The position numbers and the translations under genes are program-made. DNA of 64,000 nt from the NCBI RefSeq assembly GCF_000308215.1, contig NZ_CAJE01000013.1, forward strand, positions 62,001 to 126,000, in the 5' to 3' direction. The notes beneath the pieces are model-generated. The model saw nothing but the letters and a program-made list of their open reading frames with translations, was not told the DNA's origin and ran no database searches. Positions 5,814 to 57,825 of this stretch are shown piece by piece. Position 1 is the stretch's first letter, and each line of letters begins with the position of its first letter. The DNA is from Methanomassiliicoccus luminyensis B10 (GTDB taxonomy: Archaea > Thermoplasmatota > Thermoplasmata > Methanomassiliicoccales > Methanomassiliicoccaceae).

Positions 5814-8800
5814 ATGCCCTTGATCATTACCGTGGCCTCGGTATCAATGCCTGCCCTTGCGCAGGTCTGCAGGTACGCTGAGAAGAACAAGGACAGCGGC
5901 TTCGATTTCCGGATCCATTACTTGGGCGGGGGCGATGGTGAGCACAAGGACTGCATAGAGGAGGATGTGAGGAACGCCGATCTGCTGCTCACCGACCTCA
6001 TGGGCGCGTCCCGGGAAACATACTCCAAAGTGGTAAGATCGGCAAAGGCATGCAAAGGCCAGAGGCTGGCCATAGGGGGCATGGCGCCGTCGCTGAGCCG
6101 CTTGGGCGGTTACGACGCAGCCTCGTTCAGGATGAACAGGGCCGATGAGGAGAACCTGCACCGCATAGGGGAATGCTGGAAGCGCGCTGAATACCAGGAC
6201 ATAGATTATATCTTCACCTCGGTCCTCAAGAACTACCTTGGCCAGGACCACCTTCCGGACGTCCCCTGCTCGGAGGCCAGGGAAGGCGTGTACATAAAGG
6301 ACCCCGTTACTCTCAAGGAATACGGGTCGGCCGACGACTACTTCGAGGACCTCGGCAGCGTGCCCGGAGGGGGGCGCGTCGTCCTGACGTACAGCGGCAA
6401 CAGCTACCCGACCCGCAGCATCGAAGCGGTCCGCATGCTTTTCGAGAGGATGCGCGAGTTCGTTGATGTTCTTCCGATAGCCATGAACAGTTACAACATA
6501 CGATATGTTCCGATGATGAGATCGCTGATCGGGACCCCCAATCTGATCGTCAACGTCCTTCCGTTCCGCTTCATGGCCGGACCGATGGGCGGGGACAGCG
6601 TATCGGCCACTGAACTCCTGCGAGAGCTGGATGCGCCATACCTCTCACCGTTCTTCCTGACGAAAACGACCAGGGAGGAATGGGGGTCCCGCAAAGCAGG
6701 AACGAACCCCATGGAATTCATGCTCTATATCTTCCTGCCGGAGCTGGACGGCGCGCTGTGCACCATCCCCCTCGGGTTCAACGAGGCCGTGGGCCGCCTG
6801 GAAGGATATGACCTCCCGGTCACGGAGATCGCCCCCTTGGAGGACCGAGTGGATCGCATCGTGGGAAAGGTCCGGAGCTACATGAGGCTCAGGACGAAGC
6901 CGAACAGCGAGAAAAAAGTGGCCATCATATCGTATAATTACCCTCCCGGCGAGGGCAACCTATTTGGCGGGTCCTTCCTCGACGGCTCCGGATCGATATC
7001 CTTGATACTGGACATGTTGACATCAGAAGGGTACAGCACGAAGGCCATGCCCCCCGACGAGATCATAGATTCCTTCGTGAGGAACGGGACCCTGAATGAA
7101 GGCCAGTGGATGTCCCCGACCGACAGGATGATAACATACGATGGGGGCGGGAAACACCCGGACCAGGTTTCTAGGGCCTGGGGGCGGCCGCCCGGCAGGA
7201 TCATGACGGAGAACGGCAGGTACATGATCCCCGGGACGGTGAACGGGAACGTGTTCATAGGCCTCCAGCCGCCCCGCGTGCCGGGCTCGGAGGATGTCTC
7301 CGGGAGCTACCATGATCCGGACCTCCCCCCGCACCACCAGTATATGGCAATGTACGAGTGGATAAGGGATGTTTTCAAGGCCGATGCCATCGTGCATCTG
7401 GGAACTCACGGGACCTTGGAGTTCCTTCCCGGCAAGGAGTCCGCGGCATCCTCCGAATGCTATCCGGACATGATGATGGGCGACTCGGTCCACATATACA
7501 TCTACTACTCCGGGAACCCCTCCGAGGCGATGATCGCGAAGAGGAAGTCCCATGCGTGCCTGGTGAGCTATATGCCGCCGCCGTTCGTAAAGAGCGGGAC
7601 CTACGGCGACCTGGTAGAGCTGGAAGAGGCCATAGCGGAGTACCGGGAGAGCATCAAGACCGACATCGGCAGGAGCGAAGCACTCCGGGAGTCGATAGAG
7701 AGGAAGGCGTCGGGCATGCGCCTTCCCGCGGACATCGAGGAGCTTGAGGACGAGCTCGTATCGATACGCGAATCGCTTATTCCGAAGGGACTGCACAGGT
7801 TCGGGAAGGCCTTCGACAAAGAGGATGCCGAAAGCTACGCCATACATGCTATGGGGTTCCCTCACGACGGCGTTGTGCCTTTGGAGAGCCTGCCGGAGCT
7901 GGACGCCCATGATGTCGAGCGGATCTATCGCGAGTACAATTCGGACAGGACCGTTCCGGACGTCATAAAGGACCATACCGAGGCGATCAGGTCCCTGGAG
8001 TATGAGCACAGCCTCGTCCTCAGAGCGTCCAGGTCCGACGAGCTGGACGGCCTCCGAAGGGCATTGGAGGGCAGGTTCATCGACGTGAAGCCGGGCGGGG
8101 ACGCCATGAAGGACCCGGAGGTCCTCCCATCGGGGTACAACATCGTTCAGTTCAATCCGGACCGCGTCCCCACAATGGCGGGCTTCGAGAGAGGCAGGCA
8201 GGCCGCGGAGGACACCATATCCCAGTACGAAGAGGTCGCCGGCAGCTATCCGTGTAGCGTGGCCCTGGTCCTCTGGGGGCTGGAGACCTCCCGCACCCAG
8301 GGAATGACAGTAGGGCAGATCTGCTGGTATCTCGGACTGAGGCTGGTCAGAACGTCCGGGGACTTTGCCAGCCGGTTCGAGGTGGTCCCGCTCGAGGAGC
8401 TGGGCCGCCCCAGGATAGATGTCACTGTGTCCATGTGCGGCTTCTTCAGGGACATGTTCCCGAACCTCGTCCCGGGGCTGAGCCAGCTGTTCTCGATCGT
8501 CAGCTCTCTGGACGAGCCCGAGGACCTCAACTACTGCAAGGCCGGAACACGCCGTAACCGCGAGTTCCTGAGGTCGAAGGGGTATAGCGGCAATGAGCTG
8601 GACGACCTGTCGGAGTGCAGATTGTTCGGTCCCCCCAGGGGCGAATACGGGACATCCATGACCGGCATCGTGAACAGGTCCTCGTGGAAAGACGAGGGCG
8701 AGCTCGGCAGCTCGTTCACGGAGAGCCTCCGCTACGCATACACCCACAGCTCGCAGGGGTACGACGCAAAGGGACTCCTGGAGGTCAACCACAGGGAGGT

Positions 8801-9347
8801 CCAGGTCGTGTCCCAGGTGAGGGACAGCACGGACCGGGAGCTGATCGACCTGGACCACTATTATGAGTTCCTCGGGGGGCTGTCCAAGGCGGTGGAGATC
8901 GCGCGCGGCGGGAAGAGAGCGTCGGTCTTCGTCGTCGACGGCAGCGGCAGCAAGGTAAGGACGCTGGGCGTCAGGAGGTCCATCGAGCGCGGGGTGCGCA
9001 CAAGGCTGCTGAACCCAAAATGGATAGATGGCCTCCTGGAGGTCAGATATCACGGGGCGCAGAACATCAACGACCGCTTTGAGAACGTGCTCGGCCTCGC
9101 CGCCACCACCGGAGAGGTGGACAGCGGGGTCTTCAGCGACATGCTGAAGTGCTACGTCGAGGACCAAGACATGCGCAGGCGCGTCAGGGAGAACAATAAC
9201 TGGGCCTACATGTCCATGCTGAGCAGGCTGTCCGAGGCCAGCTCCCGCGGGTATTGGAACGCGACGGACAAGGAGCTGGAGCTGCTCAACAGCGCGTACA
9301 TGGAGTCGGAGGAGATGGCGGAGGCCGAGACGGACAGGGACAGCTGA
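5814..9347 (+). CDS. cobN: CobN/ChlH-family metal chelatase large subunit
   Basis: The 1177-residue product is the large porphyrin/corrin-binding subunit type of ATP-dependent chelatases that insert Co or Mg (CobN, ChlH/BchH). The hallmark H-L-G-T-H-G-T-L-E-F-L-P-G-K motif begins at His528, and length and the C-terminal Y-W-N-A-T-region fit the family. Classical enzymes need AAA+ partners (CobS/CobT or ChlI/ChlD); none is in this window. The ATG at 5814 follows GGAGAT. The gene is convergent with an iron/cobalamin-type ABC importer and shares an operator with that importer's promoter, so a role in corrinoid or metal-tetrapyrrole assembly linked to metal uptake is likely. True substrate and metal are uncertain. 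Confidence 0.9.
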   Translation: MPLIITVASVSMPALAQVCRYAEKNKDSGFDFRIHYLGGGDGEHKDCIEEDVRNADLLLTDLMGASRETYSKVVRSAKACKGQRLAIGGMAPSLSRLGGYDAASFRMNRADEENLHRIGECWKRAEYQDIDYIFTSVLKNYLGQDHLPDVPCSEAREGVYIKDPVTLKEYGSADDYFEDLGSVPGGGRVVLTYSGNSYPTRSIEAVRMLFERMREFVDVLPIAMNSYNIRYVPMMRSLIGTPNLIVNVLPFRFMAGPMGGDSVSATELLRELDAPYLSPFFLTKTTREEWGSRKAGTNPMEFMLYIFLPELDGALCTIPLGFNEAVGRLEGYDLPVTEIAPLEDRVDRIVGKVRSYMRLRTKPNSEKKVAIISYNYPPGEGNLFGGSFLDGSGSISLILDMLTSEGYSTKAMPPDEIIDSFVRNGTLNEGQWMSPTDRMITYDGGGKHPDQVSRAWGRPPGRIMTENGRYMIPGTVNGNVFIGLQPPRVPGSEDVSGSYHDPDLPPHHQYMAMYEWIRDVFKADAIVHLGTHGTLEFLPGKESAASSECYPDMMMGDSVHIYIYYSGNPSEAMIAKRKSHACLVSYMPPPFVKSGTYGDLVELEEAIAEYRESIKTDIGRSEALRESIERKASGMRLPADIEELEDELVSIRESLIPKGLHRFGKAFDKEDAESYAIHAMGFPHDGVVPLESLPELDAHDVERIYREYNSDRTVPDVIKDHTEAIRSLEYEHSLVLRASRSDELDGLRRALEGRFIDVKPGGDAMKDPEVLPSGYNIVQFNPDRVPTMAGFERGRQAAEDTISQYEEVAGSYPCSVALVLWGLETSRTQGMTVGQICWYLGLRLVRTSGDFASRFEVVPLEELGRPRIDVTVSMCGFFRDMFPNLVPGLSQLFSIVSSLDEPEDLNYCKAGTRRNREFLRSKGYSGNELDDLSECRLFGPPRGEYGTSMTGIVNRSSWKDEGELGSSFTESLRYAYTHSSQGYDAKGLLEVNHREVQVVSQVRDSTDRELIDLDHYYEFLGGLSKAVEIARGGKRASVFVVDGSGSKVRTLGVRRSIERGVRTRLLNPKWIDGLLEVRYHGAQNINDRFENVLGLAATTGEVDSGVFSDMLKCYVEDQDMRRRVRENNNWAYMSMLSRLSEASSRGYWNATDKELELLNSAYMESEEMAEAETDRDS

Positions 9348-53459: not shown

Positions 53460-54509
53460 ATGGACATCGAAGAGAGGTATGAACTGCTGGCGCGGAACAC
53501 CGAAGAGATAGTCACCGCGGATGAGCTGAGAGGCCTTCTCGCCAAGGACGTCGCGCCGAAGGCATATATCGGCTTCGAGCCGTCCGGGTTGGTCCACCTG
53601 GGGTGGGTGGTCTGTGCCAACAAGATCAGGGACTTCGTGGACGCGGGGTTCGAGATGACCATCTTCTTCGCGGACTGGCATGCCTACATCAACGACAAGC
53701 TGGGCGGGGACATCGAGAGGATCCGCCTGTGCGCCTTGTACATGCAGGACTGCTTCGAGGCGCTGGGAGTGCCCCGCGACAAGGTCAAGTTCGTGATGGC
53801 CTCCGAGATCATGGACGGCATCGGCTACTGGGAGAAGGTCATGAAGGTCGGCAAGGTCACCTCGCTCTCCCGGATCAAGAGGTCCATGACCATCATGGGC
53901 CGCAAGGAGGACGACGCCGAGCTCGATTCCTCGAAGTTCCTTTACCCTTTGATGCAGGCTACTGACCTATTCATGATGGACATCGATGTCGCCTACGCGG
54001 GCATCGACCAGAGGAGGGTCCACATGCTGGCCAGGGAAGCGGCCGAGAAGCTGCACTGGAAGGTACCGATCGCATTGCACACTCCCCTGCTCCCCGGGCT
54101 GAAGGGAGTGAACCGCATGGACCCCATAGCCACCAAGATGTCCAAGTCCGACCCGGACAGCGGGATATCCATACATGACTCCCCCGAGGACATCAACAGG
54201 AAGATCAAGAAGGCGTTCTGCCCGGAAAAAGAAGTGGAGGGCAACCCCATGATGGCAATATGCAAGCACATCCTGTTCCAGGAGTCCTCGGATTTCGTCA
54301 TCGACCGGCCCGAAAAATTCGGCGGGAAGTTGGTGTTCCATTCGTACGACGAGCTGGCGTCCGCCTACGCCGGCGGGGACCTTCACCCCGTGGACCTCAA
54401 GCAGGGCGTGGCCAAGGGCCTCATCGACAAGCTGGCCCCCGTCCGCGCGTACTTCGAGAAGAACCACCAGAACCTTGACGCCCTGAAGAGGTCGCTCGGC
54501 ATCGCGTGA
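53460..54509 (+). CDS. tyrS: Tyrosyl-tRNA synthetase
   Basis: 349 residues, archaeal/eukaryotic short form without the bacterial S4-like C-terminal domain. Class I motifs: P-S-G-L-V-H-L-G-W (HIGH-like) near 42, K-M-S-K-S near 225. Tyr-binding residues appear in Y-I-G-F-E-P-S-G. It charges tRNA-Tyr. The ATG lies about 25-30 nt after a TTTATAA element, so the transcript is nearly leaderless. Confidence 0.95.
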   Translation: MDIEERYELLARNTEEIVTADELRGLLAKDVAPKAYIGFEPSGLVHLGWVVCANKIRDFVDAGFEMTIFFADWHAYINDKLGGDIERIRLCALYMQDCFEALGVPRDKVKFVMASEIMDGIGYWEKVMKVGKVTSLSRIKRSMTIMGRKEDDAELDSSKFLYPLMQATDLFMMDIDVAYAGIDQRRVHMLAREAAEKLHWKVPIALHTPLLPGLKGVNRMDPIATKMSKSDPDSGISIHDSPEDINRKIKKAFCPEKEVEGNPMMAICKHILFQESSDFVIDRPEKFGGKLVFHSYDELASAYAGGDLHPVDLKQGVAKGLIDKLAPVRAYFEKNHQNLDALKRSLGIA

Positions 54510-55101: not shown

Positions 55102-55731
55102 TCACTTGGGGGCGCCGCAGGTGGGGCAGTTCCTCATGAAAGAGGGGTACTCCTTCCCGCAGCTCGCGCATTTGGTCGAGTCCACGGGGGCCTGGGCCGG
55201 CGCCGCCGGAGCAGCAGGGGCCTGCGCAGGGGCGGGCGGGTACTGCGGAGCGGACTGAGGATACTGCGGCGGGGCCGGCGGGGAGTACTGCTGGGGCTGC
55301 TGGTAATACTGAGTAGGATACTGCTGCTGCCCCTGGGGCTGCATGGCCTCCTGCATGCGGATGAACGCGATCAGGAAGAACAGCCCCGGGACCACCAGGC
55401 AGAAGATCAGACCGATGACGCCCCATATCAGGAGGTGATCGCTGGCCTCCTTGAAGCGGCCCTGGTCTATCGGGTCGAAGACCGTGTTGTTCATGAGGAA
55501 AATAAGCAGCGCGCAGACGGCGGCGAATATGAGCCACATCACGCCGCCGATGTTCAGGGTGACCAGCGACACGACGCCGGCGATCACGGAGATCAGGAAC
55601 ATCAGGTACAGCAGGAGGTGTCCATAGTAAGCGAACCGTCTCCCCTCGGCGGCCGCGGCAGGAAGCCAGGCCGGCCCGTTGCTCTTTGACATATATGGCA
55701 GGTTTGCCAATTCTGGCGGCAGGTCGTTCAT
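55102..55731 (-). CDS. Membrane protein with Pro/Gln-rich linker and C-terminal zinc ribbon
   Basis: 209 residues. Four hydrophobic helices (about 35-125), then a low-complexity Q/P/Y/A-rich linker (about 132-185), then a zinc ribbon C-A-S-C-G-K-E-x-P...C-P-T-C-G. The ATG at 55731 follows GGGAGGT, a strong ribosome-binding site that excludes the longer frame. Similar DUF4870-like arrangements are common in archaea; function unknown. Confidence 0.8.
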   Translation of the reverse strand: MNDLPPELANLPYMSKSNGPAWLPAAAAEGRRFAYYGHLLLYLMFLISVIAGVVSLVTLNIGGVMWLIFAAVCALLIFLMNNTVFDPIDQGRFKEASDHLLIWGVIGLIFCLVVPGLFFLIAFIRMQEAMQPQGQQQYPTQYYQQPQQYSPPAPPQYPQSAPQYPPAPAQAPAAPAAPAQAPVDSTKCASCGKEYPSFMRNCPTCGAPK

Positions 55732-55966
55732 ATTGTTACCTCCCATCCATCGGGGCGCCGCGTCGCGGCGGCGCCTAGATGCTCGGGACGAATGAACTCC
55801 CTCGTTCATATAAAACCTTCCTGCCTTCGCTACCGGAGAGCGGAACGGGGGCCGGCCCCACCGCTCGAAGCGGGGAAATGCTTGGGCTGACCTGTTTTTT
55901 TAGTCGATATATTTAATAGATAGAGGGGTTTACGAAATCCCATATTCATTCGATAGGTTGAAATTC
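55732..55966. promoter_or_regulatory. Intergenic region with divergent promoters
   Basis: The segment separates the zinc-ribbon membrane gene from the nuclease pair. CGATATATTTAATAGA at about 55904-55919 is a strong TATA element for the CDIN1-like gene (start 55967). Confidence 0.5.
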
Positions 55967-56779
55967 ATGAAGTATGAAGAGTTCAGGGCCCTCTACGACC
56001 GGCTTTGCTCCTACAAGGACGTCAAAGGCCTGTCGGAACAGACCGGCCTTGATGAGGAGCTTCTCAACGTCATCTACACCCAGAGGACGGTGAGGGAAGC
56101 CACCAAGCGCCATCACATTATAAAGAGGAACGCTCCCCGCATGTTGCGGGAGTGGAAGTCGGGAAGCAGCCTGCTCAGCGTCGCCCAGAAGTGGAACTTC
56201 CCGCCGGTGCTGACCGGGCTCATCCTGTTCCAGGAGAACGGATACTCCAAGAAGGAGTTCTGGAAATACGTGCGAGAGCCTGATTCCATACCCAACCCCC
56301 GGCTCAAGAAGGAGATCGTCGAGATAACCGAGGCGGACAGCATATATTCCCCCTGGGGGAACGAGGTCCAGTACAAGCGCGGGGCGTGGGGGGAGACCAA
56401 GCTGCAGGAGTGGCTGGCATCCCACAACATCTCCTACCGCACCGAGAAGGACCTGCGGGGCAAGTTCGCCAAGACCCCGGACTGCCTCCTGGACGAGCCG
56501 CTGAAAGTGAACGGCTGGACCATCAACTGGATCGAGTCCAAGGCGTCCTTCGGCGATCGCGTGGAGTTCAACAAGAACATCAGGGGACAGCTGGCCCAGT
56601 ACGTTGACATGTTCGGCCATGGCCTGGTGGTATACTGGTTCGGGCATGTCGACGATATGGAGTGCCCTCCTGGGATCGAGATCATCGATGCCTGCCTGTG
56701 CGACCTGGCCTGCGAGAAGGCCGCAGCGGGCGCGGCGGACTTCTGCCCGGAAGAGATACCCAATAACTCCCAGGCCTGA
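55967..56779 (+). CDS. Archaeal CDIN1/C15orf41-like TPD-family nuclease
   Basis: 270 residues. The N-terminal half is helical with a HTH-like part, as in the eukaryotic protein; the C-terminal half is a PD-(D/E)XK fold: T-P-D172 (K-T-P-D-C-L-L), E190-S-K192 in W-I-E-S-K-A-S-F-G-D, and G-H-G-L-V-V-Y-W-F-G after it. These signatures match human CDIN1 (C15orf41; congenital dyserythropoietic anaemia type Ib) and its archaeal relatives. The ATG at 55967 is chosen over TTG 55958. A strong TATA element lies 50-60 nt upstream. The next gene, a Cas4-like membrane nuclease, begins 62 nt downstream on the same strand. Confidence 0.85.
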   Translation: MKYEEFRALYDRLCSYKDVKGLSEQTGLDEELLNVIYTQRTVREATKRHHIIKRNAPRMLREWKSGSSLLSVAQKWNFPPVLTGLILFQENGYSKKEFWKYVREPDSIPNPRLKKEIVEITEADSIYSPWGNEVQYKRGAWGETKLQEWLASHNISYRTEKDLRGKFAKTPDCLLDEPLKVNGWTINWIESKASFGDRVEFNKNIRGQLAQYVDMFGHGLVVYWFGHVDDMECPPGIEIIDACLCDLACEKAAAGAADFCPEEIPNNSQA

Positions 56780-56841: not shown

Positions 56842-57825
56842 ATGGAGAGCATCTCCGCCAGCGACCTCGAGAAATTCTGTTATTGTCCGCTGAGCTGGCA
56901 GCTCAGCAAGGGCGCCGACACCACCTCCGACGCCACTCGGAGAGGGAAGGAGGAGCACGACGCTCTCGGCAACGACCTCTCCGAGATGGTCACCAAGGAG
57001 CGCCGGGGCGCGCTCTACGAGAAGGTGATCCTGTGGTCCTCGGTCCTCGCTACCGCGCTAGCTCTGACCGGGCTGTTCTTCTTCTACTCCGACGACCTCA
57101 TGCTGAGGTGGAAGGTATTGGGGATCCTGGCCCTGCTTTGGGTCATCGTCGCCATGTACCTCCTCTACCGCTCCACCTGGGAGAAGGAGGCAATAAAGAA
57201 GGAGAGAAGCGAAAGGCTCATCTCGGTCCTGGCCATCCTGGCGATGATCGCTGCGCTCAACGGGGTACCCTTCTTCGGCATCAGCCAGGACGAAGCCCTC
57301 ATCTATGAGGCGGTGGCCCTCATCCTCCTGATGTGCGCATGCGTGGCGCTGTATCTGTCCTACTACTCCGAGGAGGACGCCAAGCGCATCCGGCGGAACA
57401 TGGACGTGAAGGGAAGGGTGGCGTACATCGGGGAGGGCGACGATATCTCCAGGGCGCTGCGCTCCAAGGAGCACGGGCTCACCGGACGTCCGGACTACGT
57501 GCTGGAGATGGAGGGCGAGCTGGTTCCAGTGGAGGTGAAGACGGGGCGGGTGCCGAGAGGCCCGCTGTTCTCCCACATCCTCCAGGTCGCGGCGTACTGC
57601 CTCATCCTCGAGGAACAAGGCGACAAGGTCTCCCGCGGAATTCTACGGTACGGGGAGGTGGAGCACGAGATAGAGTACGACGAAGCGCTCCGGTCCTTGC
57701 TGCTGGCGAAGCTGGAGGAGATGCGCCGGGCCATCGGGACCGGCGAGGTGCATCGGAACCACGAGCGGCCCGGCAAGTGCCGCTCCTGCTCCCGCCGGGT
57801 CCGCTGCCCGGAACGACTGGAGTGA
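56842..57825 (+). CDS. Membrane-embedded Cas4-like PD-(D/E)XK nuclease with probable 4Fe-4S cluster
   Basis: 327 residues. Nuclease residues of the RecB/Cas4 type: R-R-G-K-E-E-H39, D218 (G-R-P-D), E231-V-K233 (V-P-V-E-V-K), Q248-x-x-x-Y252. Cluster cysteines in the Cas4 pattern: C15 (C-Y-C-P) near the N-terminus and C313, C316, C322 near the end. Between His39 and D218 lie four predicted transmembrane helices (about 62-82, 91-109, 126-146, 152-174), absent from ordinary Cas4. So the cysteines and catalytic core must be on the same, probably cytosolic, face. No cas1, cas2 or CRISPR array is near. The partner is likely the CDIN1-like gene upstream. Confidence 0.85.
   Translation: MESISASDLEKFCYCPLSWQLSKGADTTSDATRRGKEEHDALGNDLSEMVTKERRGALYEKVILWSSVLATALALTGLFFFYSDDLMLRWKVLGILALLWVIVAMYLLYRSTWEKEAIKKERSERLISVLAILAMIAALNGVPFFGISQDEALIYEAVALILLMCACVALYLSYYSEEDAKRIRRNMDVKGRVAYIGEGDDISRALRSKEHGLTGRPDYVLEMEGELVPVEVKTGRVPRGPLFSHILQVAAYCLILEEQGDKVSRGILRYGEVEHEIEYDEALRSLLLAKLEEMRRAIGTGEVHRNHERPGKCRSCSRRVRCPERLE

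Follow-up and report, generated by a model that had tools for sequence, protein, structure and literature searches.

Cas4 is regarded as a soluble nuclease, and we know of no role for its stand-alone forms. These forms were described as solo-Cas4 by Hudaiberdiev et al. in 2017 and reported as mostly vertical in archaea (PMC5704561). Our search of the open-licence literature turned up neither a membrane-bound nor a split Cas4, and an earlier description may exist elsewhere. Here we analysed a window of 64,000 nucleotides from Methanomassiliicoccus luminyensis B10, in which a plus-strand gene at 56842..57825 (327 aa, with an ATG start and the stop included; hereafter cas4m) encodes a Cas4-like nuclease with a hydrophobic insertion, and we compared its residues, predicted topology, relatives and gene neighbourhoods with those of the closest described systems.

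Family assignment and membrane insertion

By curated cut-offs, the protein belongs to the Cas4 family (82.5 bits against TIGR00372 cas4, cut-off 65; 38.7 bits against PF01930, cut-off 22.7), with Pfam matches to PDDEXK_1 (4.6e-16) and Cas_Cas4 (1.4e-9) that each exceeded their own cut-off, and its gene lies outside cas loci, as is the case for solo-Cas4. The open reading frame is real, and the residues that a preliminary description had named from the sequence alone (C15, H39, D218, E231-x-K233, Q248-x3-Y252 and C313/C316/C322) are all at the positions given there; they make up the RecB-type motifs (H, D, E-x-K, Q-x3-Y, with minor substitutions at E231 and Q248) and the four-cysteine signature of Cas4, with one N-terminal (C15) and three C-terminal (C313, C316 and C322) cysteines. 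Three plus-strand segments carry these residues: an N-terminal module (residues 1-50, 'ISASDLEKFCYCPLSW...GKEEH', 56842..56991) with Cys15 (56884..56886), a proposed Fe-S ligand, and His39 (56956..56958), the metal-site histidine of Cas4/RecB nucleases; a PD-(D/E)XK core (residues about 190-300, 57409..57741) with D218, E231-x-K233, Q248 and Y252, delimited by Pfam/NCBIfam, Foldseek and residue conservation; and a C-terminal cluster motif, 'HRNHERPGKCRSCSRRVRCPE' (57751..57816), with C313/C316/C322. Catalytic and cysteine residues were retained in homologues: across an 81-sequence alignment, C15, H39, K233, Y252, H304, H307, C313, C316 and C322 did not vary, with D218 and Q248 close to invariance, the substitutions being E231 to Asp in some homologues, Q248 to Arg/Lys in some and D218 to Asn in L019 alone, and C15 and H39 were also conserved in the split pairs described below. 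Going by its family and residues, the protein would very likely be an active Fe-S nuclease.

Between His39 and the catalytic core, where the preliminary description had seen a four-helix module, four strongly hydrophobic segments were found. They form two hairpins on the plus strand, the first at residues 52-116 (56995..57189; TM1 about 61-80, TM2 about 91-109) and the second at residues 117-180 (57190..57381; TM3 about 126-144, TM4 about 152-172). In the 81 homologues, the segments had mean hydrophobic moments of 0.11-0.15 and charges were rare, so they are non-amphipathic, not the soluble amphipathic helices that would have counted against that description. Mean K+R counts (81 homologues) were 3.9 on the N-terminal side, 4.0 in loop 2 and 4.4 beyond TM4, against 0.6 and 0.3 in loops 1 and 3, respectively. 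This is the standard positive-inside pattern, and it places both the N and C ends in the cytosol. We are therefore highly confident, as far as sequence can tell, that cas4m is membrane-integral with a cytosolic nuclease, an arrangement in which C15 and the C-terminal cysteines could meet, as the preliminary description required. The two hairpins are also related: a profile comparison of hairpin 1 with hairpin 2 by hhalign gave a probability of 99% (E 5e-18; controls at most 2.1% for 30 column-shuffled profiles and 3.4% for the reversed profile), showing that TM1-2 are homologous to TM3-4 and that the insertion in the window is a duplicated two-helix hairpin. Weak likenesses to other families (7TMR-DISM, DUF1345, EPS_sugtrans and SLATT) were set aside as compositional, with scores under their cut-offs; SLATT-type membrane effectors, for example, were matched at 12.7 bits (SLATT_5, against 60) and 10.2 bits (SLATT_4, against 55).

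Structure models, made with AF2, which takes no account of membranes, gave a pLDDT of 80.9 and a pTM of 0.78 for the window protein, with values mostly of 92-98 in the core and 54-75 in the helix bundle. A two-helix homologue (L140) was modelled with high confidence (pLDDT 95.6, pTM 0.88); its two continuous helices (H31-83/H87-125), 53 and 39 residues long, form one hairpin that connects the N-terminal motif to the core, such that the predicted molecule consists of a long hairpin stalk with the nuclease as its head. Matches by Foldseek were to Cas4, Dna2, MGME1 and ACE1.

Distribution, hairpin number and a two-gene form

The architecture was shared by far too many homologues to be a chance feature of one genome. 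Among 84,980 species scanned there were 154 relatives, the best 80 of which had the same architecture and were apparently all from Thermoplasmatota, and 252 of 390 sampled Thermoplasmatota genomes had a match (helices were checked in part of these, and some may be ordinary Cas4). Among the relatives of the window genome, cas4m was found in 38 of 61, and it was mostly single-copy per genome. Family f2, which probably corresponds to the gut Methanomethylophilaceae, lacked the gene in nearly all of its genomes, as did some genomes of f1 (for example, G001, G003 and G005), which indicates that it is not essential everywhere. A viral origin was rejected on scans in which viral contigs and phages yielded no cas4m relative and plasmids yielded only weak, partial matches to ordinary Cas4/PD-(D/E)XK proteins. 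In a tree built on 190 columns, with the membrane part omitted, several multi-member families formed supported groups (for example, f8, f9, f13, f24 and f35+f43), and deep branches were poorly resolved.

Helix number was even in each lineage examined (2, 4 or 8, corresponding to one to four hairpin copies), as would be required if the N-terminal Cys/His module is to meet the core without a membrane between them; entries scored with three helices were four-helix proteins in which the weaker TM4 fell below the cut-off. One hairpin was found in ten loci (L138-L140, L142, L143, L145, L148, L193, L194 and L224) and four in a further five (L137, L141, L144, L146 and L150); two are present in the f35/f43 loci and in proteins of the window type. 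The minimum number of changes on the tree was six for the single-hairpin forms, three for the four-hairpin forms and at least two for the split described next. Four eight-helix loci adjoin ribosomal L15e, and the eight-helix homologue L141 / L211 has a C-terminal extension that resembles a TRAM domain by appearance.

In three families (f9, f34 and f7), cas4m is replaced by two adjacent same-strand open reading frames, of which 19 distinct pairs were recovered from 18 genomes, with one genome (G191) carrying two different pairs, L159 and L182. ORF A encodes the Cys15/His39 module, here a separate small protein, and ends directly past one hydrophobic helix; ORF B has a single hydrophobic helix at its start, followed by the nuclease with the three C-terminal cysteines. 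Of 30 aligned entries (some loci counted twice), all retained C15 and D218/E231/K233, and 29-30 retained the C-terminal cysteines. Sequencing error was rejected as the source of the split, which recurs in several genera, including in single-contig genomes, with differing relative frames and stop codons; a programmed or conserved frameshift was likewise rejected, given that the frames differ between pairs and that start codons sit at the stop in many (ORF B starting at -4, 0 or +1 relative to the ORF A stop). Three pairs (L159, L161 and L164) had no standard ORF B start near the ORF A stop. The halves very likely form one enzyme, and from their sequences we infer that they would assemble as a heterodimer. 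This natural split also indicates, independently of topology, that the part with C15/H39 and the cysteine-bearing core can meet. If so, the split form would offer a clear example of two membrane proteins supplying the ligands of one Fe-S cluster, and both it and the two-helix form are small and testable.

Gene neighbourhoods and candidate functions

Conserved neighbours were present, and they varied between groups. In Methanomassiliicoccales, the immediate upstream neighbour encodes a TPD-motif protein (PF14811, CDIN1/C15orf41-like PD-(D/E)XK; 55958..56779, plus strand, in the window), which occupied this position on the same strand in 25 reference loci as well as the window, and cas4m is convergent with glmS-glmU. 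The TPD gene was rejected as an obligate partner, however, since it persists in genomes without cas4m, including those of f1 and f2 noted above, and was present in 59 of the 61 genomes. In the window, the tyrosyl-tRNA synthetase gene (tRNA-synt_1b; 53460..54509, plus strand) lies 2.3 kb upstream of cas4m. In f9 it directly follows the split pair, and a same-direction operon, smc-scpA-A-B-tyrS, was conserved in 10/10 genera (L195-L200), with 4-base overlaps in several. The SMC protein of this operon has SMC_N and hinge domains, and its kleisin was identified as ScpA by a profile match to PDB 6ivh (E 5.6e-5). In another group, comprising 21 loci (L059, L063, L069-L072, L074, L080-L109), the gene that immediately precedes the nuclease, same-strand and within tens of bases of its start, encodes a secreted protein with lamin-tail and PLD domains (LTD-PLD), and in about half of these the LTD-PLD and nuclease frames appear to overlap by some 150 bases. 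Further neighbours across loci included GlmS/GlmU, L15e and Dus. Two conserved membrane proteins were also observed, one with a C-terminal zinc-ribbon-like motif, encoded upstream on the opposite strand (55102-55809 of the window, minus strand) and kept in about 20 loci, and a small one of ~106 aa, weakly holin-like, whose gene is convergent with that of the nuclease and lies immediately past it (L193:4366-4683 and about 20 other loci). A window frame suspected by its length of encoding an SMC protein (5814-9347) proved to be CobN.

The reading that we favour, and consider rather probable, is that cas4m is a solo-Cas4 planted in the membrane, a housekeeping DNA end-processing enzyme with an Fe-S cluster and a chromosomal rather than a CRISPR role. 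On the cytosolic side, a long stalk formed by a helical hairpin would carry at its end the RecB/Cas4 core with the Fe-S cluster; the distal part of the stalk would span the membrane, with a single hairpin in the simplest homologues and two in tandem in the window protein. Going by its family, the enzyme would most likely trim single-stranded DNA ends as an exonuclease like Cas4, MGME1 or Dna2, and it would act on cellular DNA at the membrane, probably in chromosome organisation, segregation or repair. In split lineages, the halves may pair via their single membrane helices, with the Cys15/His39 half completing the cluster and metal site in trans. We infer enzymatic activity, Fe-S content and a chromosomal role alike, and among these the specific assignment to chromosome maintenance is the tentative one, although a serious candidate. 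That cas4m is widespread, mostly as a single copy, and has housekeeping genes beside it suggests a cellular role; the f9 condensin operon points to chromosome organisation or segregation. That operon is limited to one family, and the varied neighbours elsewhere could be mere housekeeping adjacency; the chromatin proteome of Thermoplasma acidophilum lists no Cas4-like protein (PMC7325993). More speculative still, and possible but doubtful, is a two-polypeptide nuclease with its active site and Fe-S cluster assembled in the membrane and coupled to an SMC-ScpA condensin, which, if true, would link DNA processing in Thermoplasmatota with the organisation of the chromosome at the membrane. On either reading, cas4m would be a candidate for a physical tie in archaea between DNA processing, condensin and the membrane.

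The preliminary description had offered three roles for a nuclease at the membrane, acting on incoming DNA, on the nucleoid or in defence. Its chromosomal option is the one favoured by the phylum-wide spread, the lack of a cas or virus link, the housekeeping neighbours and the f9 smc-scpA operon; the other two fared less well. Defence at the DNA entry point is the main rival: here a membrane nuclease would degrade foreign DNA entering by virus ejection, conjugation or uptake, possibly triggered by SMC-type DNA sensing as in Wadjet/MksBEFG. A part for solo-Cas4 in uncharacterised defence has been proposed (PMC5704561), SMC complexes can carry nucleases (PMC10586767), and in one group the adjoining gene encodes a secreted LTD-PLD protein whose PLD portion matches DrmC profiles. 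Yet cas4m is phylum-wide and mostly present in one copy per genome, its neighbours include no defence genes, phages and viral contigs have no relatives of it, and the f9 SMC gene is followed by scpA at a locus that has no JetD-type gene, such that we regard a defence role as unlikely, if well worth bearing in mind. Less probable again is the processing of taken-up DNA, as food or in transformation, alongside secreted nucleases such as the LTD-PLD neighbour. That neighbour fits extracellular DNA or lipid work equally, and its position directly upstream, on the same strand and within tens of bases, holds across a sizeable group of loci, but it is confined to particular lineages, since different neighbours are seen in the window genome and in the majority of the others, and no uptake genes (for example, ComEC) were noted near cas4m.

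We consider it very improbable that the helices are a soluble hydrophobic dimerisation bundle or a compositional artefact instead of a membrane domain: the low AF2 confidence for the bundle of the window protein and the compositional nature of its weak likeness to unrelated membrane families would fit such a view, but the low hydrophobic moment, near-absent charge and positive-inside pattern, the even helix number in all lineages, a split that always falls between two helices and the pLDDT of 95.6 for the two-helix homologue speak against it.

The CRISPR question can be answered more briefly. As the preliminary description had stated, no cas genes lie near cas4m; the sole other Cas4 match and both Cas1 genes of the genome are on other contigs, and cas4m is not encoded with cas1/cas2 as CAS-Cas4 is. 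M. luminyensis B10 has a subtype I-C CRISPR system (PMC4153887), and the window genome has a separate cas operon with its own I-C-type Cas4. A displaced adaptation Cas4, still serving Cas1-Cas2, is hardly credible: the TIGR00372 cut-off was exceeded, but the genome already has that Cas4 inside its cas operon, 26 of the 38 genomes with cas4m had no cas1 match, and across the 61 genomes cas1 showed no association with cas4m (12/38 with versus 8/23 without; Fisher p = 1), on which a CRISPR link was rejected. One of the Cas1 genes (G000:C15:160089-160982, 416-aa frame) lies apart from the cas operon and may encode a casposase; M. luminyensis is mentioned in the casposon literature.

Comparison with known systems

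The nuclease domains of MGME1 and Dna2 have the same PD-(D/E)XK fold, as matched by Foldseek, and act in cellular DNA end-processing; neither protein is membrane-integral, MGME1 has no cluster and Dna2 carries a helicase. CRISPR Cas4 (type I-C, 8d3l; Cas4/Cas1 fusion, 7mi4/7mi5) provided the best structural and sequence matches and has the same catalytic and cluster motifs, but it is soluble, has a short link between its Cys/His module and core, and acts in spacer acquisition within Cas4-Cas1-Cas2. ACE1 (an Argonaute-associated Cas4 family; PDB 9iab/9iac) likewise shows the Cas4-family fold outside CRISPR, but it is associated with Argonaute and, going by the entry title, has no membrane hairpin. 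Wadjet and MksBEFG (PMC10586767, PMC10123090) resemble the f9 operon in that an SMC complex and a nuclease are encoded together, but they combine a Toprim protein (JetD/MksG) with a MukBEF-like SMC, whereas f9 has a hinge SMC, ScpA and a Cas4-type membrane nuclease, and the MukB-like JetC, JetA/JetB and Toprim JetD that define Wadjet were not found at the f9 operon. The solo-Cas4 proteins (PMC5704561) share the Cas4 core, the four cluster cysteines and a location outside cas loci, and are described as apparently mostly vertically inherited in archaea; the main text of that paper describes no transmembrane insertion, hairpin duplication or split gene. A phylum-wide, membrane-fixed Cas4 with a repeat-built anchor and a natural two-subunit split may offer a concrete handle on solo-Cas4 function.
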